Below are positions 3,861 to 62,935 of a stretch of 64,000 bases of DNA, piece by piece (within the stretch, counting starts at the first letter, position 1; each line of letters starts with the position of its first letter). Source of the stretch: Mesostigma viride. Its lineage: Eukaryota; Streptophyta; Mesostigmatophyceae; Mesostigmatales; Mesostigmataceae. Location of the stretch: positions 864,016-928,015 of the forward strand of contig RPFO01000078.1 of NCBI GenBank assembly GCA_009746045.1, given 5' to 3'. The notes under the pieces are model-generated. The model made no database searches and was not told the origin of the DNA. It worked only from the letters and a program-made list of their open reading frames with translations. The position numbers and the translations under genes were made by a program.

Positions 3861-6800
3861 ATGGCGCCGTATGGTGGCGGCCATATCGTATCGTCAAGGG
3901 ATCGCACAGCCGAGTTTCTCGCTACAGTAGAAAGGTTACAGAAGACGCATGTTCCGTATGTGCCCGCTGCACCTTCCGGGGCGCCGTCGGATTCGCCGGC
4001 ACATCATGGCTTGGGAGCGAGCCGGGCTAGCTCGGCCACTCCTCCCCAGCATTCCCATCCTCAGTCTGAGTTTGCCAAGCGGGCTTCGCGCATCGGGTTG
4101 GGGATCCACAGCACGTCAACTAAACTTGCAAAGCTAGCAAAATGTCAGTAACACCGTGCAAAAGTACAACCATAATTCTGAGGCTCGCTGTATTTTTTTG
4201 CATGTACAGGTACTCTTTCAGCCGTTGCAGCTAATCCTTTTTGTCTTCTCCGTATTTGGTCTCATGGCTTGTGTTTTAGCCACCCCGCTATTACTCAATC
4301 ACTCCACCGCTTGGAAATCTCTGTTCGCCCAAATCCATAATTACCGATTGGAGATTGGCTGTTCTTACTTGCTATCCGCGGCCTACCATGTGCAATAGAT
4401 ATATTCGTGTATGTTCTCATTGTAGTACTAGTGCTGCTTGCAATTTTGGCTGCTGACCACTGCCTTGGTTAGCCTGGAATCCCACATTCCTTCTCTTAGT
4501 CTGTCTTCCATGCTCTGTCCTCATGTTGTACGTTACTTGTTCTTATTCATTGAACCCCATATACATGCAATTTGCCACCTCCTTGACCGGGTAGTTTGAA
4601 TGATGCTCTGCCCTCGTTGCTTGCCATTTCCTTGGTTACCTTGGCCTTCCACTTGCCTCTTGTGCATCAATCTTCCCTGCCGTGTCACGATGATTAACGT
4701 GCCTTATCCTTAGGTTGCAGGATTTAGGGTCCTTGACCACTCCATAAACACATGTGTTCAGGGTTTAGGGTCCTTGACCACTCCACATACACATGTGCAT
4801 GAAATCGCGTTTGTGAATACTCGTGTTTTGTCGCCCCTGGTAATGCCACACGGACATGCCCTGTGTATTTGGCATCACCTTATCGAAATCTGCGACATGC
4901 GCCCCCCCCCCACCACCACACACACACACACAGTGGCCAAGCGCACGGCCATGTTCGACGACCCCGCGAAAGAGATCCAGGACCTGACGGCTGTCATCAA
5001 GAAGGACATCACGGCGCTCAACAGCGCGATCGCGGAGCTGCAGCAGCTGTCGCGCATGCACCAGGATGGGGTGCACGTGGACAACCGGCAGAGCAACGAG
5101 CACTCGGCGACGGTGGTGGACAACCTGAAGACGCGGCTCATGGACGCGACCAAGGAGTTCAAGGACGTGCTCACATTGCGCAACGAGGTGGGTAGGGGTG
5201 CCCGGGCACGTGCGTGCATCCGTTCATAAAGTTCACATGCCTCGCATTGGGGGCTTGGGTCAGAGTAGCTGTGTTGGGTTTGGGGTTTGGGGCTGGATGC
5301 CGGTAGGCTCTAGGAGTTCCAAAACGTGCTCACAGTGCACACTTAGGAGGGTCGACGCTCGCGATTATATTTCCATCAATTCGTATGCCTCTTTAGGTCT
5401 GTAGGAGGTAACGCACGCGCTCCCGCTGTGCAACCAGGTGGGTCATGGGGGGGACCCAACCGCCCCGATATTTTATCCACTGGCGGCGTGGGTTCACAAC
5501 GAGGCGACAGGGCCCTCCCACGCTGCGCAACGAGGTGGGGCGTGGCACGCTGGCCAGCCCGACCCACACCAAACCAAACCAAACCAAACACAACCAAACC
5601 AAACCAAACCAAACCAAACCAAACCAAACCAAACCAAACACAACCAAACCAAACCAAACCAAACCAAACCAAACCAAACCAAACCAAACCAAACCAAACC
5701 AAACCAAACCAAACCAAACCAAACCAAGTCAAATCAAACCAAACCAAACCAAACCAAACCAAACCAAACCAAACCAAACCAAACCAAACCAAACCAAACC
5801 AAACCAAACCAAACCGGTACCCGGTACCCGCTGATAGCCACCCATGGGTGGCAAAACTGTTGCTTGCATCGTTTTAAGATCCAGGAAAGGGCCTGCCATG
5901 TGATGCCCCGGTGCCCTTTTGTTGTTCTTAACCTGTGGCACCCATCTGTTTGCCGAGAGGACCACCTGCCAGGTGGCAGGTGCTGGCCCTGTGGCCCATT
6001 GGCATTCGAGGCGAATCTTGTATCCATTTTTATCAATGATGCATCAATTCTAATAAGAAACCAATTTCTAATCCGCGAATGAGCTGTCGAACTCTGTAAT
6101 TTCTATACTACTATCTCCACCCAATCTTCTACTTCCCCCGCTGATAGTCAGGGTCCACTCTTCACCCTTTCTCAACAACTATATATGTCCTCATATATGT
6201 TCCCCATATGTTTCTCCCCCACCCCAGAAACTCAAGGTCCTCCCTTTCTATACCCATTGTCTAATTGCATACTCGAATGTCTTCCTACGTTTACTCCATG
6301 CTTCACACCCCCCACCCCCCACCCCCCACCCCCCACCCCCCACCCCCACCCCCCACCCCCACCCCCCCCCCCACCCCCCACCCCCCACCCCCACCCCCCA
6401 CCCCCACCCCCCACCCCCACCCCCCCCCACCCCCACCCCCCACCCCCCTCCCGCAGGACCTCAGGATCCTCCCTTTCTGTACCCGTTGTCTGATGTATAA
6501 ATATGTCTTTTTATATGTCTTTGTACATGTACTCCATGCTTCAACCCCCCCCACTCCCCAGAACCTCAAGGTCCACAACGAGCGGCGCCAGCTCTTCTCC
6601 TCCTCACCCACGTCCGAAGCGCCGGGGCTGGGGCTGGGCAAGCCGGCGGCGGGGTCCGCAGGAGGCGCTGCCGCTAAATATGGCGCCAGCCCGGTAAAGA
6701 CTGGCCTACTCAGCCGGTGGGTGCCCAGTGATGCCTCTAGTATCTCGCTCTTGTTCATCATATGCAGGTCGTGGGTGCGCATGGCCAGTGCTCGTTAAAT

Positions 6801-8633
6801 CCTATATTTTATTACTGAATAGAATACTTTGTGTTCCTTTGCTGGCCCCCTTGCTGGCCCGGTTTGACCCCTCTCCGGCCCATTTCGGCTCCCTGCTGGC
6901 CCCATTCCTGCCTCAAATGCCGCCCCTGATTTCTGCCCCCCCTCTCCCGCGCCCCTGTCCTGGTACCCTTTGCCCTGCCTTCCCCCCGTCCTGCCTCCTC
7001 CCTCGTCCTGCCTTCCCCTCCCCCCCCCCACACACATCGTGCCGCTCCGCCCACCCCACCCCCCAACCACCCCAATCCTGCCCCCCCCCCCCCTCAATCT
7101 GTCACATCCCCATGCTGCTGTCCCCCCCCCCCCCCGTCCTGCCCCCCCCAGCCGCAAGGGTGAGCAGCAGCCCCTTCTCCCAATGCACAACGCCCCGTCC
7201 TCCAGCTCCAGCGGTGGCGGTGGGCAGCAACTGCAACTACAGCAGCAGCAGCAGCTCATCCCACTGGCAGACACGTACCTGTCCAGCCGCGCCGAGGCGC
7301 TGCAGAGCGTGGAGGCCACGATTGCGGAGTTGAGCGGGATATTCAGCCAGCTGGCGACGATGGTCGCGCAGCAGGGCGAGATTGCCGTGCGGTACGCTAA
7401 TAGATAATGGGGTGATGTGGGATGGATGATTGCATTTTTGTCTCGCTGACTTGACGCACAGCATTGGTCACGCAGCAAGAGGAGATCGCAGTTCGAAAGG
7501 AATCCATGGATTTTCTACGACCCCTGTCAACTGGATTAAATTAACTTTATGGGAACCTGTGGTAATTCTTTTTGCTTCTCAAGGCAACCCCTATGCCAGC
7601 TCCGCCCACTCCAATATTGTTCTCCCTTGCCGCCTTGCCGCCTGGCCACCCTGCCGCCTTGCCTTGCCGCCTTGCTCTTGCCGCCTTACCGACTGGCCGA
7701 CTGGCCGACTGGCCGACTGACCGACTGGCCGACTGACCGACTGGCCGACTGGCCGACTGACCGACTGACCGACTGGCCGACTGGCCGACTGGCCGACTGG
7801 CCGACTGGCCGACTGGCCGACTGGCCGACTGGCCGACTGGCCGACTGGCCGACTGGCCGACTGGCCGACTGGCCGACTGGCCGACTGGCCGACTGGCCGA
7901 CTGGCCGACTGGCCGACTGGCCGACTGGCCGACTGGCCGACTGGCCGACTGGCCGACTGGCCGACTGGCCGACTGGCCGACTGGCCGACTGGCCGACTGG
8001 CCGACTGGCCCTCTGGCCGACTGGCCCTCTGGCCGACTGGCCGACTGGCCGACTGGCCCTCTGGCCGACTGGCCCTCTGGCCGACTGGCCCTCTGGCCGA
8101 CTGGCCGACTGGCCGACTGGCCGACTGGCCGACTGGCCCTCTGGCCGACTGGCCGACTGGCCCTCTGGCCGACTGGCCGACTGGCCCTCTGGCCGACTGG
8201 CCCTCTGGCCGACTGGCCGACTGGCCCTCTGGCCCCCTGGGCCCCTGGTCCCATTTCCTCTCGTCCGTCATGACGCAGATGATCCTTTACTTTAATATTT
8301 GGGTTAGGATGCAACGAGACTTGCATGCGAGGTTGTCTCTTTGATACTACTCGGTCCCATGCCCTCATGCATACCACGCAAGTACTTAAAGTACTTTTTT
8401 TCCATCTTGCCACTCCCCTTGCCCCGCCCCCTTGGTTCCGCCCGCTTGCCCCACCACCTTATGCCCTCGGCAGCATCGATGAGAACATGGATGACACGCT
8501 GGCCAACGTTGACAACGCACAGACGCAGCTGCTCAAGTACCTCAGCCGCATCTCGTCCAACCGCTGGCTCATCATCAAGATCTTCCTTGTCCTCATCGTC
8601 TTCCTCGTTATCTTCGTCGTATTTGTTGCCTAA
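3861..8633 (+). CDS. SED5: Syntaxin-5/Sed5 family Qa-SNARE, five exons
   Basis: Qa-SNARE of ER-Golgi and intra-Golgi vesicle fusion (STX5 in animals, Sed5p in yeast, SYP31/32 in plants). Exons: 3861-4143, 4934-5187, 6562-6716, 7152-7391, 8474-8633. All phases agree and give 363 aa, close to the family length of about 340. The N-terminus has the family's DRT.EF motif followed by KLAKLAKLAKRTAMFDDP (the central Leu is split by intron 1). An Habc-like helical region follows, then LRNENLKVHNERRQLFSSS across intron 2. The SNARE helix starts near YLSSRAEALQSVE, contains GIFSQLATMV with the central-layer Gln, and crosses intron 4 as AVR/IDENMDDT. It ends in SNRWLIIKIF and a C-terminal hydrophobic anchor. 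The ATG at 3861 is chosen because an in-frame TTG extension at 3834 is not a start. Function follows from family; the exon model is inferred. Confidence 0.93.
4727..4800 (+). repeat. Short tandem duplication in syntaxin intron 1
   Basis: Two direct copies of about 38 bases beginning 'tttagggtccttgaccactc' (about 4725 and 4767), each followed by a variant of 'acatgtg'. The unit includes a single TTTAGGG, the plant-type telomere heptamer, which may be coincidental. Confidence 0.7.
5309..5550 (+). repeat. Echo copies of syntaxin exon 2 end plus 5' splice site inside intron 2
   Basis: The real exon 2 end (about 5155-5200) reads 'aaggagttcaaggacgtg', then 'ctcacattgcgcaacgag', then the donor 'gtgggt'. 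Intron 2 holds three diverged copies. Copy 5309-5355 keeps 'taggagttcc' and 'acgtgctcaca'. Copy 5421-5450 keeps 'gctgtgcaaccaggtgggt'. Copy 5518-5550 keeps 'gctgcgcaacgaggtgggg'. Each retains a GT after the exon-like part. The upstream-most donor (5188) is the one that keeps the family's protein sequence in frame. Confidence 0.75.
5565..5814 (+). repeat. (CAAAC)n pentanucleotide satellite in syntaxin intron 2
   Basis: About fifty copies of AAACC with occasional variants (AAACACAACC, AAGTC, AAATC). The tract is stop-free in several frames and yields spurious Asn-Gln-Thr-Lys-Pro and Val-Trp-Phe-Gly-Leu open frames. Confidence 0.97.
6200..6561 (+). repeat. Tandem ladder of acceptor copies before syntaxin exon 3, with (CCCCCCA)n tracts
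   Basis: The real acceptor and exon 3 start read 'ccactccccag/aacctcaagg'. Upstream copies read 'cccaccccag/aaactcaagg' (about 6220-6240) and 'cctcccgcag/gacctcagga' (about 6444-6470). Each is followed by the same filler 'tcctccctttctgtaccc', a T-rich stretch, 'tactccatgcttca' and a C-rich tract. Between copies lies a C6-7A tract (6303-6450). The last acceptor, nearest the coding exon, fits the protein. Confidence 0.8.
7000..7150 (+). repeat. C-rich polypyrimidine tract at the end of syntaxin intron 3
   Basis: Runs of 7-12 C interspersed with 'tgccccc' lead to the acceptor 'cccccag' at 7151. It probably serves as an extreme polypyrimidine tract, and the homopolymer runs make base counts here uncertain. 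Confidence 0.7.
7680..8240 (+). repeat. (CCGACTGG)n octamer satellite in syntaxin intron 4
   Basis: About seventy tandem 8-mers, mostly CCGACTGG, with interspersed CCCTCTGG in the right half and CCGACTGA in the left. The two variants alternate in blocks (for example about 8010-8240), suggesting multi-unit duplication after the variants arose. All phases are stop-free, giving spurious Ala-Asp-Trp-Pro-Thr-Gly-Arg-Leu frames. Confidence 0.97.
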
Positions 8634-9402: not shown

Positions 9403-9600
9403 TGGTGGCCCTGACGTTCAACCTGTCTTCCGCTGACCTCAACCAGGCTGTCTTGACAACAGAGCTGGACCCAGCCTGCAAGAACCTTCTTCTCAGTCAG
9501 CATAAAAATGGTCTTGATTTCTCTGATAGACCTGGACTTCATGCTAGGGTGGGACGCAATCGGGGTTGCCAAAAGCTGCTTCGTTTAGAATTAATTGATC

Positions 9601-12491: not shown

Positions 12492-15400
12492 TTAAACCGT
12501 TGGGCTGTTCCGCCGGTAGACGAGTGCCTCCACCGTGGCCTTGAGGCTCTCCGCATTGATGGGCTGCTCCACGCACACGCAAGGCGTTTCCCCCCCCCCC
12601 ACACACACACACAACATGGCACAAAGGAGCATGGTAAGCGCACATGGTAGGATGTTGGAGCCAGCCAGCGGAGGATGTAGAAGTACAAACGGGTCAAGCC
12701 TGCTGTCCATGGGATAACCACTCCTGATCAGCATCAGGAGTGGCATCAGGAGTACGCTTGTCAAGGCCAGTGTGCAAAACCCTGTGCTGCAGAACCAGTT
12801 CTCGCCATTGTCGCAGCTCCCACTCAAGAATCCTGCCCCAATCAAGAAGATATTAGACCAAGCGTGATTAACGCGATAATCCAGAGTTCACACACTAGGC
12901 ACAACACTGAACACAGACATAAATACGTAGTTCAGATGGTAATGAGTTTAGCGGACCCACCCATCTCTTGGCCTGTTACACACACAGGCCTTAGGTATAT
13001 CTCAGGAATAGCTCTCAAAGGCCACCACCGTATACACAAGCACATCTAGCCCCACCCACCCTGACGAAGCATAACGATTTGTCCATGCTGGACTGCATGC
13101 ACCTGTTTCCATGGCCCCCACCGCTCACGCTGCCACATTCGCAATCCAGTCCACCTCGCACTCCAGCCCACCTCGCAATCGGTCCACCGATGAGCAACTT
13201 GTCCATGCCATGAACTTGTCCCACTCCCACGCCCCATCTATTCTGTTCCTGTGCAAACGGCTGCCTTACTTGCATCCCACCCACCTTGATGAGGAACTTA
13301 TCCATGCCGGCCTGAATGCACTGGTTGCGGTCAGACGGCATGGCCGACGCGGTGAGCGCCACGATGGGCGTGCGCCGCCCCTTGCTGGCCTCAAAGTCGC
13401 GGATCTGCTTGGTCGCGCCGCAGCCGTCCAGCACCTGCCAGGGTGAGTTTGTGGAGGGGGGCAGTGGCAAAGGGAGAGGGACAAAAGTGGGTGGGTGGGT
13501 GGTGGGTGGGTGGGTGGGTGGGTGGGTGGGTGGGTGGGTGGGTGGGTGGGTGGGTGGGTGGGTGGGTGGGTGGGTGGGTGGGTGGGTGGGTGGGTGGGTG
13601 GGTGGGTGGGTGGGTGGGTGGGTGGGTGGGTGGGTGGGTGGGTGGGTGGGTGGGGGTGGGTGGGTGGGTGAGTGGGTGGGTGGGTTGGTTAGGGGGGTGG
13701 GGGTGGGGAGGGATGCGGGCGGGCGGGCGGGCGGGTGCGACATAACCTGGGTAGACATGCACGTGCTTGAACCAGAAGCATCTGCACATCCATGGGAATA
13801 GGGTCCCTGTTCGATCCACTGTGGCTAACATTGACAGCAACTATGACTATGACTTGATAAATACGCGAGCATAACCCCACAGGCATCAACATGAGGCGCC
13901 TAATGTTCAAGGGCACGATGCCTTCACTGACGTGCCTGGCCGTTATTTACATCTCTAATAAGGTAATACCATGATCTCAAACCCACCGGCATCTGCACGT
14001 CCATGAGGATGACGCCAAACTCCTAACTACCAAATGTCTAATGAACTGCTACTAGACTATTATAGTTAGAGTTTGTCGATGCACCACCCACCGGCATCTG
14101 CACGTCCATGAGGATGAGGTCAAACTCCTTCTCATGCACCGCCGCGACCGCCTCGGCCCCATTGTCCGCCAAAGAGACACGCGCGCCCAGCTTCTGCAGC
14201 ATGAGGTAGGCCACCTTTTGGTTCACCGGGTTGTCCTCGGCGACCAAAACAGAACACCCTTCCACCAAATTCAACGGCTTTGCGAACCGTCGCTCGTCCT
14301 CCTCCTCATCCGTCTCATCCTTCCCGCCCCCTCGGTCGCCCTCGACATCCCCCTGCCCGCTGCCCTCGTCCACATCCCTCCGCACCCCCTCCTGCTTGCT
14401 GTGCTGGCGCCCATCGTCAAACATGAGCTCCGCCGCGCGCGATTTCGCGTGCGGGCGGTTGTTGGGCGATGCCGGGTCCACCCCCTCCCCTGCATACACC
14501 CCGCTGCCGTGCCCCGGCCCGTCCTGCTTTCGGCTGTAGGCCCCCCCTTTCCACCACCCGGCCTGTTTTGCATCCGTCTCCAGTTGAGCCTTGGCCCCAG
14601 CCGCGGCCATCGCACGCTGCCGATCCATACCCGCCAGCTGCAACTTGGTCACCGCCAGCTCTCTCTCGGCACTCATGGCCGCGGTAATTCCCGAACTGGC
14701 ATAACCACTGCCGCCGTACGCGTGGCCCTGGGCGATTGTCGACCCGTTGGCGCCGCTGTCCTGCTGGTGGTTGGCACCCAGGGCCGCCCCTCGCTTGAGC
14801 ATGGATGCAGAGGCCAGCGCGGCAGGGGACGTGGCCAGCAGCCAGCGCACGAGCCCCTCCCGCCGGTTGCTGGTGAGCGGCTTGGTCACGTAGATCGAGC
14901 TGTGCGGGTCGGGGCGTACCTCCAGCAAGGCCTTGCGGATCGCCTTGGGGGCGCCAGGTGGTACCATCCACACGAGCCGCACGTAGGGGGGGATGCTGGA
15001 CAGGCCTTGCTGGATGGCCTTGGGGTCGAGCGTGTTGCGTTCCTGGATTGGGGGGTGGGGTGGCGGGAGGGGAGAGGAAGTGTGTGTGGGGGGGGGGGAG
15101 ACACGGGGGTGGGGCAAATGTCATGGGTTAGAGGATGAGGGGACAGAAATCCAACGGCTGGAGGTAGAGGAGGCAGGGGGGAAGGGAAGGGGGGGAGAAA
15201 ATTGTCCGGTGGTGAGGAAGGGGGGCAGCAGGGGGAGAAGAATGGGGGGGGCAGGGCCCCATGTTGAACGCAACGCCCAGCGAGAAGGGGCAAAGCGGCT
15301 TGCAGGCATATGCATGGGGAATGTTTCTTTACTCAGTTTGAGAACACACAGGGGGAGGGCAGGCAGGACAGGAGTCAGGCTTACCAACACCACGGCACAA

Positions 15401-20249: not shown

Positions 20250-23200
20250 CTGGTGCCGGTTTCGTTTTGTTTCCGTTGCATCGATTTGAATTATATGGGT
20301 TGTCCACAGTGGTTGGGGGAGGGGGGGGGGGCGAGGGAGGAATTCAGGAGACAGTGATATCAGCGAGCCGAAAGGAATCAGCGAAGGCTAAGGTTTGCGA
20401 GGGCTACCCGTTGGTGGTGATAGCTAAGTGTCCACGATTACTGCCACAATCATATACATTTTGGGGGGCATCCGCCGGCAAAACCCTGATGCATGAGATT
20501 TCTTGTTCGTATGTGCATGCTTCCTGCTCCCGTGTATGGAGCCATACCCATGACCAGATAAGTACATACCTGCTTCCAAAACCAGTCAGCAATAGCGCCG
20601 GTACTCCCTAAACGGCAAAGGGAGACTGGCCATGGCAGATGACCCATCTGAGGAGAAAGTAAGCTACCGAGAGCCAGCACACACCGGTGGCGCCGTATGC
20701 TTGTCTGGCACTAGAGGAAAACAGCCATGCCACATAACGCTGATTCGCCACGAATATGTCCACGCACCGGTGCCGCCGTATTTGCGCGTCGTGCTCAGGT
20801 CGGCCTGGGTGAAGTTCTGGAAGAGCTGCTCCTGCTGGTTGAGGTCCACGCCACAACCGGTGTCGTCCACCTGCAGCCAGACAAGGAGCAGTGAAGGTTT
20901 CGGAGGTCGGCGAGCGTAAGGCCTGTGTGCTGGGAAATCAACCACTGATGAGGCGTCGTCTACCTGCGGCCGGGGAGGCGGTTTTGTTCCTGTGGCACCG
21001 GCAAAGGGCATGAAAGATTATAGAGGACAAACGACATAGGGGGGACTTGGTTCACAACACGGGCACGATTATGCCTTGGGGGCAAGAACTGATGTAATTG
21101 GAAGCGCGTGGTGGCCTGGTGGGAGGCCCTTGACAGCCAAGCTGGGGGGCATATTCCTTTCCTCCCCCTCCCCTTCCTTTCATACATGGTCAATAGGACG
21201 CAGGTTATACGTTGTTCGTTGTTCAAAGTCCGGTCATGTCGCGTAGCGACCATCATTACGGCAACCATGAGCGTGCACACGACGGCTATCCGATGTGCCC
21301 AGGGTCGAGCATGGAACAAGCGTGCCTGACGCAACCAAGCACATACCCCGATCATATCCATATATCAGCGTGGCTGTCCCTGAGCTCGCAGGGGCGCGGC
21401 CATGCGTTCGATACTTTTTGTTTACCTCAAATAGAAACCCTAGAAACTTCGTGACTGACCCCCGCGTTCCTGCCTGTTCAGTGCGTGATAGTGTGTGATA
21501 GTGTGTGATAGTGTGTGGTAGTGTGAGTGTGTGCCTTTTTATTTTCGTGACCGGCGAGGGGTCGGTCACGAAGTTTCTAGCCTAGCCTTAAGCAAGAGCA
21601 AAGAAGTGGGGTCAAACTGTACTCACCTCGAATATCGGATCGGCACTACGTATTCCGACGTCTAATTGACCTTCCACTCACCCCCAACACCAGATTGGCA
21701 CGATGTACTCAGAAACGTGATCGACCTTCTACTCACCTCGAATATCAGCTTGGCGGCGCGAGCCTGCAGGACAGCCTGGCGCACCGCAGCGCACGTCTGC
21801 GCGGGCAGCATGTGGGCAGGGTCCGCCCCCTCGGGGGCCATCCAGCCCCGCAGCAGCACGTAGCCCTTGGCCGTGAACTTGACCGCGTTGCTGCGGACAA
21901 GTAAGGCAGGTGAATAGCATGAAGCACATGGACAGCAAAAGGCAAATGAATAGCAAAAGGCAAATAAATAGCACCAAACATAAACTGGGTGGAGGAATCT
22001 AACATGAACTTGACCGCACAGCTGCGAACAAATATATCAAAGATATTTATATCTAGCGTGAAGAATTGCATAATAATCAAGTGGACGGATGGCATGCAGG
22101 AGATGAATGCAATTCAGCAGAGGAACACGGCGCTAAGAGCAGACAGCACGAGGCAACAGCACCTTTATTATTGTTACGGGTGACACAAGCCGAGGTGATC
22201 GAGCCATGGAGCCATGGAGGGCACCGGGGGGAGCTTGAGATGACGACAGGCCTCAAGGGGGGGGGGCGGGCATACAAGTGTTGATACTACTAGATAAGGG
22301 CATACAAGACGTGCTGATACAAGTGTTGATACAAGTAGATAAGGGCATACAAGACGTGTTGATACTAGTGTTGATACTAGTAGATAAGGGCATACAAGAC
22401 GTGTTGATACTAGTAGATAAGGGCATACAAGACGTGTTGATACTAGTGTTGATACAAGTGTTGATACTAGTAGATAAGGGCATACAAGACGTGTTGATAC
22501 TAGTGTTGATACTAGTACATAAGGGCATACAAGACGTGTTGATACTAGTAGATAAATTTCTATCACATGGATCGTGGTCCCATGGATCTGTGATGGCTAT
22601 ATATGTGGTGGTCTCATGGATCTGTGATGGCTATATATGTGGTGGTCTCATGGATCTGTGATGGCTATATATGTGGTGGTCTCATGGATCTGTGATGGCT
22701 ATATATGTGGCGGTCTCATGGATCTGTGATGGCTATATATGTGGTGGTCTCATGGATCTGTGATGGCTATATATGTGGCGGTCTCATGGATCTGTGATGG
22801 CTATACATGTGGCGGTCTCATGGATCTGTGATGGCTATATATGTGGCGGTCTCATGGATCTGTGATGGCTATATATGTGGTGGTCTCATGGATCTGTGAT
22901 GGCTATATATGTGGCGGTCTCATGGATCTGTGATGGCTATATATGTGGCGGTCTCATGGATCTGTGATGGCAGACAAGTGGACAAGGCAGGGCCAACGAA
23001 GGGCACACCATTCGTGGCTTCCTGCTTCGGTTATCGAGCTGGTGCCAGGGTACCCTATCCGACATGGCCAGCCATGTCTACCCCACTCCTGGTACTTGCA
23101 ACAACTGCTTTTTTTCAAGGCTGGGTGCAGCGAAACGCACGAGACGCGAGAGAGCTGCAAACACGATGCGTGGTGGGAGCGACGCATCCGCACACAACTT

Positions 23201-26200
23201 GTTCACCTCTCAAAGCTGTCCGCTACAACATCGGACCATCCTCCTCGCCAGGAGCTGGGTAGCCAAGAGGACTGGCAAAACAACAATCTGCCAGCCTAGG
23301 ACCTTGGAGCCTGCAAACTTAAGTCAGGGTCACTTAGCACAACCTTCTAGACATGACACCGGCTGGCATGCCTCGCTTTCTTGTTGCCATGTTCAGGTTG
23401 TCATGTCTCAGCTGAACAGTTTGCTGAACAGACCAACACGAACCCGAGGCCTCGCCTCACCGGCACTATCCCTTTTCTCACCTGACCAACGTTACCCCCA
23501 GGCCCCACATGAGCAATGTCACCCCCCTGGGCTCACCTGAGCAGGTTGTTCACGATCTGGCGCGTGCGCGTGCCGTCCCCCATCACCGTAACGGGGATGC
23601 TATCTGCTCGCATTGGGGGGAAAAAGGGATACGCAAACGTGGTTGCGTGAGTCCATGTGGGCATGTGGGCATGGCATGTGGGCGTGTGGGCCTGTGGGCC
23701 TGTGGGCCTGTGGGCCTGTGGGCCTGTGGGCCTGTGGGCCTGTGGGCCTGTGGGCCTGTGGGCCTGTGGGCCTGTGGGCCTGTGGGCCTGTGGGCCTGTG
23801 GGCCTGTGGGCCTGTGGGCCTGTGGGCCTGTGGGCCTGTCGGCCTGTGGGCATTTAGGCATGTGTGGGAAAAGGGGATAACACCAAGGGGCGGCGCGTGG
23901 TGATGCATGTGGGCAATGCATGTGGGCATGTGGGCGTAGACCGTACACACGCGGCAGATTTTAATGACACGCCGACGGTGAGGTATGAACCCCAAACCCT
24001 AAACCCTAAGCTGTACGCTCAAGCCAGGCCACGAGTCCTGCATCAGTGACCCAGTCAACGCTGGTGAAACGATGCAAAAAGTTGAACAAGTGTGCTAGGT
24101 TCACAAAGTTGCGGAATGGATGGGAATGCAGAATGGATGGGTGTTCCGGTTGCGACGCGGAACTGTAGGTTGTCAGGCAGGCAAAACGATCCCATGCCCC
24201 ACTTCACGAGGAGCGGTGGGGGGAGAGGGGGAGGAGAAGAAGCATGAGGGCAGGGAAAGGTAGGGAGGGATGCAGGAAATAGGCGGCTGGAAACAGAAAA
24301 GCCAAGCAGGCTTTATGAAAATTTTGAAAACCTACGTCATTCCAGGCACAGCCAATCCTTTCCCCCTTCACCCTTCCCCCAACCCCGCCCTCGCCTACAT
24401 AGGCAAACGAATGTACTGTCCAGATCCACAACCGCCAAAGCGACCCACTAGAAGACATCCGCCATTCTGCCCATCACATGTCGTTCTAGATTAGGAGCGA
24501 CCACGATTAGGAGCGATTAGGAGCGACCACGATTAGGAGCGATTAGGAGCGTCCACGGAGAATACATAGTAGCACCAAGACGTCTACATCATGAATACCG
24601 CTGTAGTGGCCACGTAGGCACCTACACAGTGACCGCGTGAAGACCTATACAGTGACCACCACGAACCGGCCAGGTCGACCAACAGGTCAACGTCCGCGCT
24701 GGTGCGCACAGAGAAGACGTCGACCGCGGACTCCAGCTCGTCGCGGATGTTGATGGGCACGTGCTCCAGCTCCAGCCGCCCGCTCTCGATCTGGTCACTC
24801 GGCCACCAACGATCAACAACGAGTGAAGGATGCAACAGATATCAAAGACGCACACAATGGGAATGACATGTCCATCAGGATGGCCATGTAATGATGAAAA
24901 AGTGATTGCCTCTTTGCTCTCGTAAACCAGGCCTGACCCAGCCGCTCTCGATCTGGCGGTTGGGACAGGGGATATGTGGAAATGTAGGGACACAATCGCT
25001 GTGTGAGCAGAAACCGCGCGACCAACGTAGACATCTCAGCACATAGGTGGAGGGGTCGCCCTCTCCAAGCCTACTTTATGCTGGCACCCGCAACAACGAG
25101 CAACCACAAGCAAGAGAGGGTCGTGTAAAAAACATCCCCATGGGTTCAACTCATAGTGCAGGCGCAGTCACACCCGCGACGACAACCTATGATGGAACAA
25201 CGTCGACAACGAAGCACATCGCGGACGTCAATGAGCCAGGGGCCACTTGTGCCGCACCTGCTCGCCACAGGCTAGCATCCCACTTAGCGTGGAATGATCT
25301 CGCTTGTCTTACCTGGGAAAGGTCCAGAACATCAATAAGCAGCTGCACAAGTTGTTGACTATGGCCCGGGATCCGTAACCCATTCTCCCCCCCCCCCTTC
25401 ACCACACTTTGGACGGGTCCAATACGTCATTGTGCCACTGCAGCAGCTCTTCAGCTCTGGCCCACAACCTTCTCTCTGTACACCCAAGGCCCCCTTCACG
25501 GACTGTGGACAGGCCGAGGATGTCGTTGAGCCGCCGCCGCATGCGATCAGGTGTAGCCCACATTCTCACCTCCAGCCCTATATTGAATACGCTGGGCAGG
25601 CCTTTAATGTCCTACCTCGGACAGGTCCCATACATCGTTGAGCAGCGGCAGCACATCATCCGGCATGGCCCACATTCTCAACTCTATCAGGAATGCCCCC
25701 CGGGTCTTCTCACCAACAGAAGCTGCAGCAGATGTAGGCCCCAACCAATAGTGCGTGACCCTCCCCCCATGCCCCTCACCTTGGACAGGTCCAATATGGA
25801 TTAAGAAGCTGCAGCAGATGTCGGGCCCAATCACTAACCCATAGCCCCCCCCTTCCGCCTCACCTTGGACAGGTCCAATATGTCATTTAGAAGCTGCAGC
25901 AGGTCGTCCGTGCACCGCTTCATCTGCTTCAACGTCATGTGCGCGAACCGGCCCAGCTTCTCGTCCAGCAGGATGTCCAGCAAGCCGATGATGCCTGCGA
26001 CAGGTGTGCGGATTTCATGGCTGCAGCGGTGGCGGCAATGGGGGGAGCCATGGGGGGAGCCATGGATGAATGGCGGTGGTGTGCACAGCTGGCAGCGCTG
26101 GGACCAAGTCAGCAGTGTGCTAAGGTGGCACCATGGGGTGCATGGTGGTGGCGGATCGAGGGGGATGATGTGGCCCAGTGTGGCGAGGGGGCCAGTGTCG

Positions 26201-29200
26201 TCGATGCAAGGGGATGGGGGGCCAACGCGAATGGGGCGATGATGGGAGTGAGGCAGCGTGGTCAGTGGCATGCCAGGCATGCCCGCAGTGCAAAGGGACC
26301 TGGTAATGGGCAGACAAGGATTGTAAGCCTGGAGTCACTCGATAATAAACTCTGTGATCACTATCAAGTGCGCAACCATGGCAGGCCCTGGAATGCAACC
26401 AGCAAAGAGTGGCCGCCCCCTCCCCACCGCCACCCACCTCAAATTAGATACTGTGAACATGCTCTTGATCTAAGATGTGTCCCCCACATGGATAACGAGC
26501 GTCTAGCCCAGCTCACGTCCTCCCTCTTCCCCCCCGGCCCACCCCACACCCACCTCATGTTGGACAGGAACATGCTCTTGGTCTGGCTCATATCTTCCGC
26601 GCGGCACTTGGCCTCCATGAAGCGCTTGTTGAGCGCGACGAGCTTCTTCTTGAGCTTCATCTCGTTCTTGATGGGCAGCGTGAGCCGGATCACGACGGCG
26701 CAGCCAAACAGGAACACGATGACGCACGCGACCGAGACCAGGATGCGGGTCAGCCGCCGGCCCTCGTCCACGTCGCCCATGATGCTCGACCGACGGAGCA
26801 TGTTGACCAGGTTCAGGGACAGCATGTGTTGGATGCGCTTGCGGGAAAGGTAGTAGCCTGTCCCTTGGACGCGGACCAGCTGGCCCGTGATGTTGTAGTT
26901 TATGCCGGCCGAGGGCGCCACAGAGGTCTCGGATGCCGACGCGCCGGTCAAGGACTGGCCGGGCATGCCAGGTCCAATCATGAAGTTGGTTTGCGATTGG
27001 CGGGCGTCCTGTCGCGCGAGTAGCTCCTGGGGGAGGTGAGCACCCATCGATGTACGACGAACAACTGACATGATTATGTTAGAACAATTTGTTGAGGGCG
27101 TCGCGAGTAGCTGCCGGGGGCGGTGAGGACCGATTAGTGAGATAATAATCGAAGCAATGGATCTTTTACAAGCGTTGCGCGAGCAGCTCCTGGGGGAAGC
27201 GATGATGATTACGATACCAGTAACAGCAACAGTCATAATAACAGTGGCAGAACGATCCAAGACAGCCGAGATAAGGACATCACCGATAGTCATGCAATAA
27301 TGGCAACAAGGATGAATGGGTAGGAGCAGGGGAAACTGAAGGGAAGAGGAGTTGAGGTGGCGGGAAGGGAAGCGGTGAATCAGCCATGGGTTTGGAGGGG
27401 AGAGGATGGGTACTTACCTGTGGGAGGCACGAGAGGGGACCTGAGCGTAGGGATACTGACACATGGGGAATGGGGGGTGGGGGAAATGGGGGAAGAGGGG
27501 AAGAGGGGAAGAGGGGGGCATGATAGAAGATAATATAGCGCACTACGGAACAAGGGGGTGGGGGGATGGGGGAATTCAGGCACCCACTCTACCGAGGTAT
27601 GCAGGTCCCCTAACGGGGTGTCCAGGAACACCTGATGGCAGCAGGAGCCGGGAAGGGCAGGTATTTATGGACCATAGTATACACGATAATAAGCAAAGTA
27701 ATTTATTATCAGCATAACATTAGCAACTGGTTGTCCACGAGCAGCGAGGGCACCGGGATGGGCAGGTATTTATGCACCAATGCATAGTAGATGAGACTGT
27801 ACCTAGGAGGAATGAATTGTTCAGGCCGCCTACCTGGGTGTCCACGACCAGCGAGGGCACCGGGAACGGCTCGGCCGAGGGGTCGTAAAAGATGACCCCC
27901 TCGCTAAGGTTGTAGCGCAGGTGGCCGTACGTGGAGGGCATCATGCTGGTTCCGAGCAGATCCCCGCCCTGGAGCGGCGTGGGGAGGAATGTGATGGGGA
28001 GGGAGGAGCGGCATGGGGAGGGATGTGATGGGGAGGGAGGAGCGGCATGGGGAGGGATGTGATGGGGAGGGAGGAGCGGCATGGGGAGGGATGTGATGGG
28101 GAGGGAGGAGCGGCATGGGGAGGGATGTGATGGGGAGGGAGGAGCGGCATGGGGAGGGATGTGATGGGGAGGGAGGAGCGGCATGGGGAGGGATGTGATG
28201 GGGAGGGAGGAGCGGCATGGGGAGGGATGTGATGGGGAGGGAGGAGCGGCATGGGGAGGGATGTGATGGGGAGGGAGGAGCGGCATGGGGAGGGATGTGA
28301 TGGGGAGGGAGGAGCGGCATGGGGAGGGATGTGATGGGGAGGGAGGAGCGGCATGGGGAGGGATGTGATGGGGAGGGAGGAGCGGCATGGGGAGGGATGT
28401 GATGGGGAGGGAGGAGCGGCATGGGGAGGGATGTGATGGGGAGGGAGGAGCGGCATGGGGAGGGATGTGATGGGGAGGGAGGAGCGGCATGGGGAGGGAT
28501 GTGATGGGGAGGGAGGAGCGGCATGGGGAGGGATGTGATGGGGAGGGAGGAGGCCATGGAGAGGGCCGTGGGGAGGGCCATGGGGAGGGTCATGGGGACT
28601 GGGGAGAGAGATTAGAATATGCCTCCAGGCACTCGCACATGCGCACGCGGACAAGGATCCCAAAAGTGGGCAAGCGGCCAAGATATAAGATAGTGGTATA
28701 ACATATTGTGTATATACCAAAAGTGGGCAAGCGGCCAAGATATAAGATAGTGGTATAACATATTGTATATATACCAAAAGTGGGCAAGCGGCCAAGATAT
28801 AAGATAGTGGTATAACATATTGTATATATACCAAAAGTGGGCAAGCGGCCAAGATATAAGATAGTGGTATAGCATATTGTATATTTACCAAAAGAGGCAG
28901 TCACCTCGAATTATATTCATTTTTCCATGTGCATCAGCCCACCCATGAATTGGCACCCTTCCAAGGTTCCTGCCTAGCATGGAAATGGCAACCATCGGAA
29001 CCGAACAGGCGGACGCGGCGATCACCTCGGTCTCCATGAACATAACCCCCCGTTGCATCAACATCACCCTCGCTCACATAAACACCTTCAACCACCGACG
29101 AGAGATCAGGCACGTCGCCGTACCTCAGTCTCGATGTACATGAACCCCCCTTGCTCGAGTGCCACCTTGCGCACGTAGAGCTGCAGGTCGGTCACCTCGT

Positions 29201-32200
29201 AGTAGATCCCAAAGGAGCTCAGCAGGCCGCCGCTGGGGTTGAACTGCGCCTCGCAGCACAATGATGGGCGATTGCAGCACGCGATGGCAATGACAGACGT
29301 GGGCGATGGTGAGGAGAACGGTTGGGGTTGAACAGCGCTGGGTTACAACGTGTATGCGGTGACCAGTGTTGGTGACAAACAATGGCAACGATGAACGTGG
29401 GCGCGGGTGAACGTGTGCGCTGGTGATTGGGAATGACTGATGTCTATTCACGTTGTGATCAGGGATTCCGACACGCAATGGCAGTGACGGATGCGAGCGA
29501 GGATACAGAAAGGCAGATGCAGCCATAGGGAAGAAGATGAGACAGATGGCGCGGTGGTATGCCCCAACCACAACCACGCACACCAGGATGCGAGCACACG
29601 CTATCACTCACGATCGGGTACGTGCAGGAGAACCCCGTCGGGCTGCCGGACCCCAAGATATCGTGCAGGACGAGCCAGTGCATCGTCTCCGGCTTGAACC
29701 CGGACAGAAGCGTCCGCACGAGGTCCCCCTTAAAGGGGCTGACCGTGCGCACGCGCTCCCCCACAGGGACACCGAACCGGTCCAACACGCGAAACGTGAT
29801 CAGCTCGTCCGCAATGGACGCCGACTCCTCCTCGATCAGGTAGCTCACACCGGTGGCCTCGTCGATGCGGTGGACAAAGGAGTGGAGGGTGATCCCGTTG
29901 AGGATGTACAGGTGCCAGCCCTCGGGTCCCTGGAGCGCCGTTTCCTGAAGCAGGCGCACCATGGCAGGGTGCGAGGTGTTGCGGACGACGTGCCGGTCGC
30001 CAAGGCTGCGGGAGGGGGAGGGGGGGGAGGGGATAGGGGGGGGGGAATAAGGGGGGGATGAGGGGAGGGACGATAAAGTAGGGGGGCGGGGCAGCGGGAG
30101 AGGCATGAGTAGGAGTACAAAGGGCAAGGGGGAGAAACAGGGGGGGGGGGCGAGGGAGAAGAGGGGATGAGGAAGTGGTGAGCATCGAAGCGTTGAGCGG
30201 CGAGAGCATCTCTGGTGACTTTAAGATATATTGGTTTCAGTTAGTTAAGGAGTCATGACCAGCGACCAAGGATGGGCGGTGGCTTACCAGCTCCGCGAGT
30301 TCAAGTACTTGTTTGGGTATCCCAAACTGGCGTGTGAATAACCTGCCGTTGCTGCATGACCTCCCCTGTCAGGGCACATGCTTGATGTATCAATGACGAG
30401 ACAAGCAACCCAGGCCGGAAGTCGGGAGAATGTATCATCCGATCTTCACCAGCTTTTGCCGTTGGTAGAGAATCCTGAGGACGCACGGAGTACAGCACAA
30501 CCCTCCAGTACAAAAAAAGCTATGGTACAAAACCCGCTATAGTACAACGCTGTAGTACAAAAACTGCCACAGAACAACGCTTTAGTACAAAAACGCTGTA
30601 CTACAACGCTTTAGTACAAAAACGCTGTACTACAACGCTATAGTACAAGAACCGCTACAGTTCTACACTTTAGTACATCCCTTCCTCACGGCGACGCCAG
30701 ACAGCCATGTGTGGAACCAGCAGGAGGGACACATGCATCCCACCCACTGGTCCATGCGGTACACAGCCGCGCCTTTTGACGTGTCATGCAAGTAGAGCCC
30801 TTTGGGCCCTTGCTCCACTCCCATGTGGGAATCCGTCATGGCATCCGTTGCCACGCTCACGTGTCAGGCGATCCGCTGCGCTGCACATACGCATGTGCAA
30901 CTAAACACTCTACTACACTCTCCCCCACGCACATGTCGGCAATCTGCTGCGCCGAGCGCCCAAGCACCGCGGCCGACCGGTGCATGCTCTCCAGCAGACT
31001 CCGCGTGTGCTCCTCCAGCGTGATGAGCACCTGGTCCTGGTACTGCTCGCTGATGCTGGACAGCGAGGCAGTCGTCCGCTTGTTGTTGATGGCCCAGCTG
31101 ATGAAGGCCACGGTGGAGATGCAGGCGGCGAGGAGCAGCTGTGGGGATGCATGTGGGGTGGAAGGGAACACGGGGGTGGTCCGCAAGGTGTGTGCATGTT
31201 GTGTGTGTGTGTAAGGCGAGCATGGAGATGCATGCGGCGAGGAGCAGCGGGGGCGGCGGGTATGGGTGGGGGTGGAGGGGAAAAGAAGCGTGCTGTCTAG
31301 AGGGCGTGGAGATGCATGCGGTAAGGAGGAGCTGTGTTGGGGGGGGGGGGAGAAGGGAGGGGAGATATGCGTGAGCATTCGAGAGAGTGGGGGGGGGGGA
31401 GAAGCACGCAGCAAGGAGTGGCTGTGTGTGTTTTTAGGATTGTTTGTGTAAAAAATATTGCAGTTGAGGCAGGGCACAGAGGGGTGTTTAGGAAGCGGTG
31501 TACGGTGTTGGGGAGGGGAGGTGTCTGTTGGTAAGGGGGAGGAGGACCAAGAGCGATGCAAATCATGTGTGTGTATGTGTGTCTACTCGTAAGGCCAGAG
31601 GGGGGAAGAGGGGGGAAGAGGGGGGAAGAGGGGGAAGAGGGGGGAAGAGGGGGGAAGAGGGGGGAAGAGGGGGGAAGAGGGGGAAGAGGGGGGAAGAGGG
31701 GGAAGAGGGGGAAGAGGGGGGAAGAGGGGGGAAGAGGGGAAGAGGGGGAAGAGGGGGGAAGAGGGGGAAGAGGGGAAGAGGGGGAAGAGGGGGGAAGAGG
31801 GGGAAGAGGGGGGAAGAGGGGGAAGAGGGGGAAGAGGGGGAAGAGGGGGAAGAGGGGGGAAGAGGGGGAAGAGGGGGGAAGAGGGGGGAAGAGGGGGAAG
31901 AGGGGGAAGAGGGGGGAAGAGGGGGGAAGAGGGGGAAGAGGGGGAAGAGGGGGGAAGAGGGAAGAGGGGGAAGAGGGGGAAGAGGGGGAAGAGGGGGGAA
32001 GAGGGGGGAAGAGGGGGGAAGAGGGGGAAGAGGGGGGAAGAGGGGGAAGAGGGGGAAGAGGGGGGAAGAGGGGGAAGAGGGGGAAGAGGGGGGAAGAGGG
32101 GGAAGAGGGGGAAGAGGGGGGAAGAGGGGGAAGAGGGGGGAAGAGGGGGGAAGAGGGGGAAGAGGGGGAAGAGGGGGAAGAGGGGGGAAGAGGGGGAAGA

Positions 32201-36182: not shown

Positions 36183-45167
<8,985 letters not shown>

Positions 45168-57844: not shown

Positions 57845-57912
<68 letters not shown>

Positions 57913-60900: not shown

Positions 60901-62825
60901 GAGGGGGGGGGGAGGGGGGGGGAGGGGGGGGGAGGGGGGGGAGGGGGGGAGGGGGGGGGAGGGGGGGGGGGGGGGGAGGGGGGGGGAGGGGGGGGGGACG
61001 GGGGGACGGGGGGGGACGGGGGGGGGGGGGTGGAGGGGGGTGGAGGGAGGGTGGAGGGGGGTGGAGGGGGTGGGAGGGGGGTGGAGGGGGTGAGGGGGGG
61101 GTGGAGGGGTGGGGGGGGTGGAGGGGGGGGTGGGGGGGGAGGAGGTGGGGGGGGGGGGGGGAGGGGGGGGGGGGGGGGAGGGGGGAGGGGAGGGGGGGAG
61201 GGGGGGGGGAGGGGGGGGGGGGAGGGGGGGGGAGGGGGGGGGGAGGGGGGGGGGAGGGGGGGGAGGGGGGGGGAGGGGGGGGGGGAGGGGGGGGGGGGGG
61301 GGGGGGAAGGGGGGGGAGGGGGGGGAGGGGGGGAGGGGGGGGAGGGGGGGGAGGGGGGGGGGGGGGGGGGGAGGGGGGGGAGGGGGGGGAGGGGGGAGGG
61401 GGGGGGGAGAGGGGGGGTGGAGGGGGGGGGAGGGGGGAGGAGGGGGGGGAGGGGGGGGAGGGGTGGGGGGGGAGCGGGGGGGGAGGGGGGAGGGGGGGGG
61501 AGGGGGGGAAGGGGGGGAGGGGGGGGAGGGGGGGGAGGGGGGGGGGAGGGGGGGGGGGGGGGGGGGGGGGGGGGTGTAGGGAGGGGGGGGGGGGGGAGGG
61601 TGGAGGGGAGGGGGTGAGGGGAGGGGGGGGAGGGGGGGAGGGGGGGGAGGGGGGGGAGGGGGGGGGAGGGGGGAGGGGGGGGGAGGGGGGGGGGGAGGGG
61701 GGGGGGAGGGGGGAGGGGGGGGAGGGAGGGGGAGGGGGGGGAGGGGGGGGGGGGAGGGGGGTGGAGGGGGAGGGGGGGGGGAGGGGGAGGGGGGGGGGGA
61801 GGGGAGGGGGGGGGGAGGGGGGGGAGGGGGGAGGGGGGGAGGGGGGGGGGAGGGGGAGGTTTCTCAATTAATGCAAATGACTCTTTTGTGAGACTTCCTG
61901 ACAGGCTGTTGGAGAGCATCAGTCAGCTGGCTTTTGTTGTGGATCGCCTACATCTGTTTGTGAAGTGTTGCTCTACTGCGTCATTAGACTAAGTGGGGCG
62001 GCTGACTGGATAAGCATGTCATGGGTAGCGAAGGGTTCCCTGGTACAACGCGCACCCGGCCTGCTGTCACCGAGTGATGCAACGCTTTGCTATTGTTGGC
62101 GATAGTAGTGGCCGGCTATAATGTTTTCTTTTTGTAGTGTCGATTGCCGGGTGATCCTGTGCCTTGCTGTTGTTGTGCTATTGTTGGTTATAGTATTGGC
62201 TGCGGCGCTGCAGGTAGCGCACTCTGCTCACCTGTCCTGCCACTCCATCCATTCCATCCATGATTCTGTAGTTTGTACCTGTCCTGCCATGCACTCCAAT
62301 TAAGTGGTACCCCCCATCCTTGGTTTCCGCCCCCTATTCTTTCTACTGCCAGTTGCAGGGAAGCCCAAATTGGTCCCCAAGCCCAAGGCACAACATCCGC
62401 CCCATCCGACCAGGAGGCCAGTCAAGAGAGTGCCTCATGCCAAGGTCGAGGATGATGACGGGTCGGATGACCTGGATCGCAAGTTGAGCGCGCTGATCAA
62501 AGAAAACATCTGGGCGGTGCAAGGCCACGGGAGGAGCGCCGGCGCGCGGGGGCCGGGGAAGTTTAAGCTAGCGGAGAACACGGGGGGTCTGGGCAACCCC
62601 GCGTTCATTGAGTGCATCGCGTCGTGCTCTCGGTACGGCCACGCGAAGAGAGCGCGGCGGGTGGCGCCGTCACCGAGCGAAAGGGAGGGGGAGGAGGGCA
62701 AGGAGGGGCCAGAGGTAGAGCTCACGTATGAGTCTGACGTGGACTTGACGGGTTTGATCCCTGGGGGGTCCGCGGGTCTCGCGATGGCGGCATCGGCCAA
62801 GGTCTGGGGTGTGCTCAACATGCAG
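55748..62825 (+). CDS. Sulfotransferase-like gene 2, at least four exons, runs off the right edge
   Basis: Exons: 55748-56264, 56817-57299, 60013-60078, 62359-62825 and probably more beyond; 511 codons so far, phases consistent. Exon 1 has a signal peptide (VASCAVLSLLLLASVPAWA) and PVILAASRHSESRAVALLL, in the place of the family's P-loop-like RSGT motif but with SES. Exon 2 has RFGFKHPAALFAVPLLKGL and LVHLVQDGRDLA, where most relatives have VRDGRD. Exon 3 is QLVLARHYGQTN. Exon 4 is basic then acidic. The last donor appears to be GC (cag/gcaagt, 62826), and an echo of this exon end follows. Both cofactor motifs deviate, so activity is doubtful. The long second intron carries a hAT element. Confidence 0.62.
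57363..57645 (+). repeat. 26-bp tandem repeat, about ten copies, in sulfotransferase 2 intron 2
   Basis: Units contain 'ggtagggggtatgttctgtt' and 'gatgca'. Each holds 'gcaggtaggg', a possible donor, and the first real donor (ccg/ggtaggttc, 57300) is 60 bases upstream. This may be a further boundary-seeded satellite. Confidence 0.93.
57848..57910 (+). repeat. (AAT)n microsatellite
   Basis: About 21 pure AAT units in sulfotransferase 2 intron 2. Confidence 0.97.
58107..59383 (-). mobile_element. hAT-family DNA transposon, 1261 bp, with 8-bp target duplication
   Basis: Element 58115-59375 is flanked by the perfect 8-bp direct repeat TAGCCATC (58107-58114 and 59376-59383), the size typical of hAT elements. 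The ends form inverted repeats: left CAGTGATGGGCCATACGC, right (reversed) CAGTGATGCGCCATACGC, one mismatch in 18. CAGNG ends are usual for hAT. Both subterminal regions are dense in 'tacgcg' and 'cgtat' motifs, possible transposase binding sites. Inside, on the minus strand, is a truncated BED-finger protein. At 1.26 kb it is too short for a full transposase and probably non-autonomous. Confidence 0.92.
58450..58998 (-). pseudogene. Truncated hAT transposase: BED zinc-finger N-terminus, 182 codons
   Basis: Starts at an ATG with an acidic leader, then VWTYISKER, YFMECSLCQAKFSGSSTRAR and CHILGG: a BED-type finger with Cys50, Cys53, His67 and a nearby Cys80 or Cys82. BED fingers bind DNA and sit at the N-terminus of hAT transposases. 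A basic helix follows (EKDSTAKKRKATSDAKKQAD) and the frame ends soon after. The RNase H-like catalytic core is absent. A DNA-binding-only product could act as a repressor of its family, but expression is unknown. Confidence 0.8.
60245..61860 (+). repeat. 1.6-kb G-rich purine satellite in sulfotransferase 2 intron 3
   Basis: Almost pure G and A with scattered T and very few C, in three zones: (GGGA)n to about 60480, 'ggtgga' with G-runs to about 61110, and long G7-G20 runs separated by single A to 61858. It lies on the sense strand of the gene, so the pre-mRNA carries it as G-rich RNA. G-quadruplex formation and R-loops are expected. Homopolymer lengths are probably unreliable. Poly-Gly and poly-Pro frames over it are artefacts. 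Confidence 0.97.
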
Positions 62826-62879
62826 GCAAGTCCTCAGTCCATGATATAGTGTTTTAGCCTGGGCTCCCTATGTGTAGCC

Positions 62880-62935
62880 TATGATTGGTGGCATCGCTCA
62901 AGGTCTAGGGCGTGCTCAACAGGCAGGCAAGGGGA
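62880..62935 (+). repeat. Echo copy of sulfotransferase 2 exon 4 end
   Basis: 'ggcatcgctcaaggtctagg', then 'gcgtgctcaacaggcaggca', repeats the true end 'ggcatcggccaaggtctggg', then 'gtgtgctcaacatgcaggca' (62788-62828), 93 bases downstream, including the GC donor context. Confidence 0.85.

Follow-up and report, generated by a model that had tools for sequence, protein, structure and literature searches.

How introns lengthen, and whether splicing itself marks the DNA, are open questions, and both are touched by a stretch of 64,000 nucleotides from contig RPFO01000078.1 of Mesostigma viride (hereafter the window, meaning this stretch at its full length), where the introns of several genes hold partial copies of the exon edge that adjoins them. 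Such copies, which we call echoes, had been described in an earlier reading of the window, the original prediction, for a syntaxin gene, a kinase gene and two genes labelled as sulfotransferases. Our results reveal that the echoes are real and more regular than described, and the claim is upheld in substance, with corrections. The copies are anchored on the real junction and near-absent at look-alike motifs, their geometry is stereotyped, and their source is unspliced. Introns may thus be lengthened at their edges by a process of copying, in which, as we infer, each step is one event of the molecular kind discussed below.

The counts given here concern 38 modelled introns, 26 in the window and 12 in three CCT genes, that is seven modelled genes in one genome of one species, with DNA sequence as the evidence. 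Exons were modelled by hand with reading frames and GT/AG sites as guides, and the models were checked by translation. For the CCT sample, a search with family PF00118 listed the exons and three genes were taken, one of which, C777, was already known to carry an echo before sampling, while the other two (8 introns) were unseen; moreover 229 kb of other loci (L002-L024), mostly on the same contig as the window, were taken regardless of content. In what follows STX is the syntaxin gene, HK the kinase gene, ST1 and ST2 the sulfotransferase-labelled genes, and the digit is the exon number.

Are the copies more than chance? When 50-mers from the exon edges of the window were aligned with their own introns, a check which the original prediction had proposed, 9/26 donors and 4/26 acceptors exceeded shuffled introns at p<0.02, and against non-adjacent introns the same 50-mers were in excess at p<=0.05 for 11/26 donors and 4/26 acceptors. 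A stricter anchor test, with tandem arrays and low complexity removed and copies sought 60-130 bp away, was positive at 8/38 donors, 1/38 acceptors, 0/138 control points placed 60-90 nt inside exons and 4/1166 points in intron interiors, these last four all lying within one ladder, as we call a series of echoes at one junction. For donors this gives Fisher values of 2e-10 against intron interior, 2.5e-6 against exon interior and 0.028 against acceptors; by gene, the donor positives are 5/26 in the window and 3/12 in the CCT genes, one in each. Both outcomes named beforehand as speaking against the echoes, equal matching by shuffled or non-adjacent edges and equal frequency at random positions, did not occur. 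The strict test even misses some echoes, namely those of STX2 (offset 159), STX4 (which needs gaps) and ST2 exon 4 (outside the 38). At 131-600 bp anchored copies were found for 3/38 donors, 5/38 acceptors, 0/138 exon-interior and 7/1166 intron-interior points. In a looser test of the window, with repeats partly left in and z>4.5, the contrast is smaller: 8/26 donor edges and 1/26 acceptor edges, with 9/60 for intron interior, or 7/62 without low-complexity queries. At the same z>4.5 the CCT genes gave 4/12 donor edges (3/8 in the two unseen genes), 1/12 acceptors, 1/12 for exon 50-100 nt from the donor (the same tandem case) and 0/11 for exon at that distance from the acceptor; at z>3 the respective counts are 7, 1, 1 and 1.

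The position of the copied part is sharply bounded. Across 39 donors (offsets 60-130), copy coverage is 0 over -200 to -51 and 0.1 at -50, climbs bin by bin towards the junction (2.9, 5.3, 7.7 and, at -10..-1, 8.6), and falls to 4.8 at 0..9 and then 1.1; values further into the intron, up to 2, are due to ladders, in which one echo pairs with another. Of the motifs that resemble a donor but lie apart from annotated exon ends, 2/160 were positive in the window and 4/718 at the other loci, two of the latter four being real exon ends by our reading, as compared with 22/5137 random anchors. Since this is little excess, the junction and not the motif alone matters, and the donor motif as a DNA target is left unsupported. 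Chance or low complexity as the origin of the echoes is ruled out by the shuffles, the non-adjacent introns and the anchor controls. Another candidate, a longer survival of recognisable copies since exons stay fixed, was rejected as well: it accounts by reasoning for about twofold at most, and the exon-interior control, which it favours equally, was empty.

The echoes of the window and their sources are as follows (an offset is the distance of the copy from the junction in bp).

4934..5187, plus strand: syntaxin-5-like exon 2, source of donor echoes (junctions of the published model P0001; Pfam SNARE, Syntaxin-5_N)
5312..5352, plus strand: STX exon 2 donor echo 1, offset 159, copy -35..+6, 32/41 identical
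5403..5456, plus strand: STX exon 2 donor echo 2, offset 250
5497..5554, plus strand: STX exon 2 donor echo 3, offset 346-347
6225..6543, plus strand: STX exon 3 acceptor repeat units (AG and the first 13 exon nt), with copies at ~6228 (offset 334) and ~6457 (offset ~105, read by eye)
7465..7507, plus strand: STX exon 4 donor echo, offset 104
31223..31336, minus strand: kinase exon 1 acceptor echoes, offsets 109 and 193
29307..29338, minus strand: kinase exon 3 acceptor echo, z 4.0
28882..29082, minus strand: kinase exon 3 donor echoes, offsets 97-98 and 209
27725..27763, minus strand: kinase exon 4 donor echo 1, offset 107, exon part 30/32, mosaic
27586..27673, minus strand: kinase exon 4 donor echo 2, offset ~220
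27102..27197, minus strand: kinase exon 5 acceptor echoes, offsets 87 and 163
26416..26471, minus strand: kinase exon 5 donor echo, offset 113-115
25296..25823, minus strand: kinase exon 6 donor ladder, offsets ~84, 169, 248, 345, 456 and 551, spacers partly related, tandem-like
22005..22031, minus strand: kinase exon 9 acceptor echo, offset 131
21601..21696, minus strand: kinase exon 9 donor echoes, offsets 55 and 110, tandem
20678..20711, minus strand: kinase exon 10 donor echo, offset 83-85
14092..15042, minus strand: kinase exon 13, source of the best-preserved echo of the window (hand model; Pfam Response_reg)
14025..14085, minus strand: 61-nt spacer between kinase exon 13 and its echo, matching only itself in a genome search
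13981..14024, minus strand: kinase exon 13 donor echo 1, offset 105, copy -38..+6, 42/44 identical
13739..13829, minus strand: kinase exon 13 older echo, offset ~316-320
13040..13233, minus strand: kinase exon 14 donor echoes, offsets 106 and 227
40644..40703, plus strand: ST1 exon 4 acceptor echo, offset 247, z 11.2
41513..41709, plus strand: 19-bp minisatellite on the ST1 exon 5 donor (GATGAC|GTAAG), a donor unused by the published model P0122
62886..62931, plus strand: ST2 exon 4 donor echo, offset 101, 40/46 identical, GC donor GCAAG copied (tentative gene model)

The exon numbers of the original prediction for HK and ST1 apparently run one ahead of ours, and under this presumed mapping 13 of the 17 boundaries it had named hold, two are weak (the acceptors of HK exon 7 and ST1 exon 2) and two fail. 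The latter are the HK exon 11 donor (z -0.5), which is just a short CAG|GT ladder, and the ST1 exon 1 donor, where the repeat is an intron-only 34-bp tandem. Among those that hold, the HK exon 10 donor and the acceptors of STX exon 3 and HK exon 9 failed the shuffle test and rest on the junction-anchored scan, and for the ST1 exon 5 donor the support is its minisatellite. Echoes at some further boundaries had been missed, namely at the HK exon 5 donor and acceptor, the STX exon 4 donor and the acceptors of HK exons 3 and 1; at the HK1 donor there are weak matches only (offsets 71 and 228; z 1.4). As had been proposed, the splice site used by the protein models is the intact outer one.

The gene models are supported to different degrees. 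The window syntaxin is 98% identical to P0001, a published M. viride gene model which agrees with 4/4 junctions of the hand-made one, and its Pfam matches to SNARE and Syntaxin-5_N support the Syntaxin-5-like label. The hybrid histidine kinase label is also supported by Pfam, with Response_reg in exons 13-15; kinase exons 1-11 translate as 1142 codons with no stop, and in exon 12 (15444-16461, minus) the frame is broken at a G run, by sequencing error or in reality. ST1 is 91% identical to the published M. viride model P0122, which agrees with junctions 2/3, 3/4 and 4/5 and disagrees with the hand-placed donors of exons 1 and 5; at 41468-41526 it skips 17 residues of the hand-placed exon 5, either because another donor, upstream of the minisatellite, is used or through a decision made in annotation. 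Pfam gave no match for the "sulfotransferase" genes, and their label is unconfirmed. In the tentative ST2 model the joint reading of exons 3 and 4 is not in frame throughout, and a possible GC donor GCAAGT stands at 62826 for exon 4, GC being also present in the echo. At 49470-49960 and 51579-51735 (minus) there are exons that by eye recall a family-29 sialyltransferase, a label which is unconfirmed, Pfam giving no match.

What is copied, and how far away is it placed? The first-echo donor offsets are mostly about 100 bp: 104 in STX4, 97 in HK3, 107 in HK4, 113 in HK5, 83 in HK6, 85 in HK10, 105 in HK13, 106 in HK14 and 101 in ST2-4, and in the CCT genes 106, 95 and 95, plus one 48-bp minisatellite. 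Exceptions are STX2 (159), HK9 (55) and ST1 exon 5 (the 19-bp array period). This geometry is mainly a feature of the donor side; one CCT acceptor has copies at ~85 and ~172, and C777 has an additional shorter donor match at offset 59. The donor copies span about -40 to +10 around the junction, and ungapped they comprise 23-41 exon nt and 0-8 intron nt in HK13, ST2-4, C1702@1234, HK4, C777, STX2, HK3 and C1546, with shorter exon/intron parts in HK6 (19/17), HK9 (18/7) and HK10 (14/7). Between exon and echo lies a spacer of 45-75 nt.

Beyond the window, 16 non-tandem pairs with offsets of 40-160 were found in the 229 kb of other loci. Six of the 16 stand at exon edges by our reading (L003 8379, 8585, 8655 and 762; L002 1047 and 881), one of them being echo against echo and L002 1047 being of acceptor type; Pfam confirms just the emp24-like exon of L003. 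At L017 773-896 a 39-nt pair, 85 bp apart and apparently non-coding, ends in a donor-like GTATGT (minus) and may mark an unrecognised exon. Beside CCT exons, L028 holds a ~157-bp tandem pair (145/160) and a 72-bp pair 941 bp apart (69/72), at 133-521 and 1074-1145. The window itself also has simple-sequence and minisatellite arrays, intronic and intergenic, of ~200-1600 bp each (900-1412, 5564-5815, 7689-8234, 13487-13701, 18151-18491, 31597-32499, 44283-44886 and 60251-61859).

One account of such copies would be the plain tandem duplication of ~100-bp units straddling the junction, the extra copy turning into intron and its intron half decaying faster, both copies drifting. True tandem cases do exist, at ST1 exon 5 (19 bp), C1702@3960 (48 bp), HK9 (55 bp) and HK6 (84 bp), and some residual spacer similarity is seen in HK4, C1546, C777 and L003. 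However, duplication of whole units would leave a second spacer behind the echo, with a simulated median z of 16.6, 11.4 and 7.5 at per-copy divergence of 0.05, 0.10 and 0.15. For the 14 pairs whose copies diverge by <=0.13 (10 of them at exon edges, 4 elsewhere) the observed recurrence is far below this, reaching z 5.2 (HK4), then 3.6 (L003 8585, upstream comparison), with the rest <2.8, and therefore whole-unit tandem duplication is not the sole cause. Moreover the ungapped copies reach <=47 nt into the exon, and none is anchored 60-90 nt inside, though a random phase predicts some. We consider this account unlikely, if one to be taken seriously, and the initial reading of all echoes as whole tandem units has been dropped. 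The original prediction had seen local duplication as a route of intron growth, and this part is supported, as is the repeated copying across splice junctions that adds intron sequence and decoy sites; most of the well-preserved echoes are nevertheless not plain tandem, their ~60-nt spacer having no recurrence.

Nor could the spacers be traced. Compared with the rest of the intron they give z>3 in 3/14 cases (HK13 3.5, C1546 4.1, C777 6.9), which is the level of intron background, and against upstream exon sequence and in reverse complement the mean z is ~0, so that an origin as local copies was rejected. The two spacers searched genome-wide match nothing besides themselves, and no shared ends were seen by eye in about nine. 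An origin as mini-introns ending in AG was also discarded, AG standing by eye at the copy start in ~2 of ~10 young echoes.

The order within ladders bears on the history of the copies. The steps are mostly ~80-115 bp, and similarity had been said to fall with distance, which holds as a tendency only. Of 13 ladders with >=2 scored copies, 8 have the best match to the exon in the nearest copy (HK3, HK4, HK6, HK13 and STX2, and for acceptors HK1, HK5 and L003), two show a tie (HK9 and the C777 acceptor) and three do not follow the rule (HK14, the C777 donor and the STX3 acceptor). The three STX2 echoes match the exon at 27, 25 and 21 of 35 positions and each other at 20, 16 and 20, forming a star around the exon. 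The pair L026/L027, used to date events, showed just small indels and no echo difference; these two (C1641, C887) carry the same CCT region at 97% identity, as a haplotig or a recent segmental duplication.

One may ask whether the echoes are functional, as competing splice sites or regulatory pseudo-exons kept by selection. Their concentration at real junctions would agree with this, as would the GT or GC kept at the site in 11/17 echo rows, three of the other six being misregistered. Such a role is quite improbable, given that the echoes occur in unrelated genes including CCT chaperonins and the emp24-like gene, that their decay is a continuum, that GT is lost in HK4, STX4 and STX2 echo 1, and that the 19 differences of six young echoes are spread over codon positions as 5/8/6, as expected if unconstrained. 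(In the decay table the rows HK5, HK14 and HK6/84 have a wrong ungapped register, which inflates the "old" class and leaves the young class unaffected.) The restriction of copies to exon ends might also recall reverse transcription from spliced mRNA. In 25 echoes tested there is no run-on into the next exon, or the previous one for acceptors (mean z 0.26, max 2.3), and several echoes include intronic donor bases; spliced mRNA is therefore hardly credible to us as a source, and genomic DNA or unspliced RNA remains.

Altogether we tentatively favour, at a probability of roughly 0.38, a recurrent duplication at real exon-intron junctions, with filler, in which the extra copy is discarded as intron. 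The duplication would act repeatedly in M. viride, mostly at 5' splice sites, and a typical step would gain ~100 nt at the junction, made up of 45-75 nt of unrelated sequence and a copy of roughly 35 nt from the exon end, to which the initial 5-8 nt of the intron are in some cases added. With the outer donor intact, copy and spacer would be removed with the intron; the echo would then drift without visible constraint, and later steps would move it inward and so build the ladder. The mechanism may be a staggered break, or a template switch, linked to transcription or splicing at the exon end, where fill-in would duplicate ~40 nt and filler would be joined in. A further share probably comes from simple junction-straddling tandem duplication, as at ST1 exon 5, C1702@3960, HK9 and in part HK6.

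Several observations weigh against this favoured duplication with filler. The anchor points sharing an intron are not independent, all five strict positives of the window lie in the kinase gene (5/14 introns, other window donors 0/12), acceptor copies are mostly 131-600 bp away (5/38), and some gapped alignments extend well past -50 at low identity. Related spacers indicate that tandem units play a part: the HK6 units share spacer sequence; the HK4 spacer has z 5.2, but 1.2 with another cut; the C1546 spacer has z 3.5-4.1 by local alignment, though 0.9 in the recurrence test; and that of C777 reaches z 5.2-6.9 against the later intron. Spacer length is surprisingly uniform if the spacers are filler, and since exon ends are unmarked in DNA, targeting by DNA only is hard to explain. 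Finally, HK4 echo 1 is a mosaic whose left flank resembles echo 2 (22/38) and whose exon part resembles the exon (33/37), and acceptor echo 1 of L003 equals the exon at 35/35 between spacers only 26/40 alike, and therefore a patching of old units fits these two as well as fresh insertion. The units could accordingly be old tandem ones, with eroding spacers and an exon-like part refreshed from the exon by short gene conversion or template switching; conversion among intron units should keep these alike too, and such pairs are nearly absent (4/1166), which leaves this refreshing improbable on balance, yet worth keeping in view. The mixed evidence from HK6, HK4 and L003, which at some junctions points to tandem units or to such patching, is the reason why our commitment to junction duplication with filler is kept at the level given.

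A bolder version, rather doubtful at present, is that the copying depends on splicing: when the 5' splice site of a nascent transcript is recognised, local DNA synthesis or staggered breakage would be directed by the stretch bound there (about -38 to +6). It draws on what is commonly held about the link between U1, the polymerase and the donor, and for the rest on speculation. If true, that stretch would be written into the gene, splicing would lengthen introns at their edges as a side effect, and earlier states of the exon would be on dated record in every ladder. More generally, if junction-anchored copies at a fixed distance are present at about one fifth of donors and scarcely at look-alike motifs, a splicing-aware process would shape the genome; Mesostigma is unicellular, and therefore transcription-linked changes can be inherited. 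In the portion consulted of the published assembly report (PMC6947507), the genome has 441.8 Mb and 24,431 genes, introns average 1142 bp, repeats take up 30.1% of intron space, and the Iso-Seq data given there make part of the question testable now.

How does this compare with known systems? Intron gain by tandem genomic duplication is reportedly the subject of Rogers 1989, Hellsten 2011, and Gao and Lynch 2009. The original prediction knew of no named class for the echoes; a related one is in print, with boundary-crossing duplications and tandem-duplication intron gain in the excerpts seen of PMC4974935 and PMC3443670, and exon-edge ladders as such were not recognised in the parts consulted of the open-licence literature searched. 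In the potato RdRp case an intron was gained by tandem genomic duplication, one duplication crossing an intron-exon boundary (PMC4974935, in excerpt), and such gain is reviewed in PMC3443670, likewise in excerpt. The likeness is local duplication including the splice junction, after which one site stays used and the rest turns intron. In contrast, the cases described in those excerpts are contiguous and create a new intron, while in Mesostigma mostly 30-45 nt of exon edge are copied, with a non-recurring spacer, in ladders, and existing introns grow. A whole unit repeated head to tail with its spacer was not seen in the 14 pairs (one spacer at z>3.9, HK4 5.2); it was seen at ST1 exon 5, C1702@3960, HK9 and partly HK6. 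Nor does a new intron lie between duplicated AGGT sites, the echoes being inside one intron and the protein reading joining the outer sites, as backed by public models for syntaxin and three ST1 junctions.

In Daphnia, introns were gained by double-strand-break repair with short direct repeats (PMC3443670, in the part available). The echo geometry would fit an insert flanked by direct repeats from staggered-break fill-in, whereas the Mesostigma repeats are much longer (25-46 nt), on existing junctions and sometimes several per junction. Introners come in families whose members resemble one another, and some of them have target duplications of 3-9 bp, according to the excerpt of PMC9860276. They share with the echoes the recurrent insertion that adds intron sequence; unlike them, the echoes are exon-edge copies of 25-46 nt, not a target duplication of a few bp. 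The two spacers searched match themselves alone. Minisatellites straddling a splice site are a further kind, to which ST1 exon 5 (41513-41709) and C1702@3960 belong, with at least 3 head-to-tail copies including the splice site, unlike most echoes, which are not tandem. Intron gain by tandem duplication and duplication across a boundary are thus known already, and what appears to differ here, as far as the sequence tells, is that spaced copies of the exon edge stand in ladders and that existing introns would grow by them.

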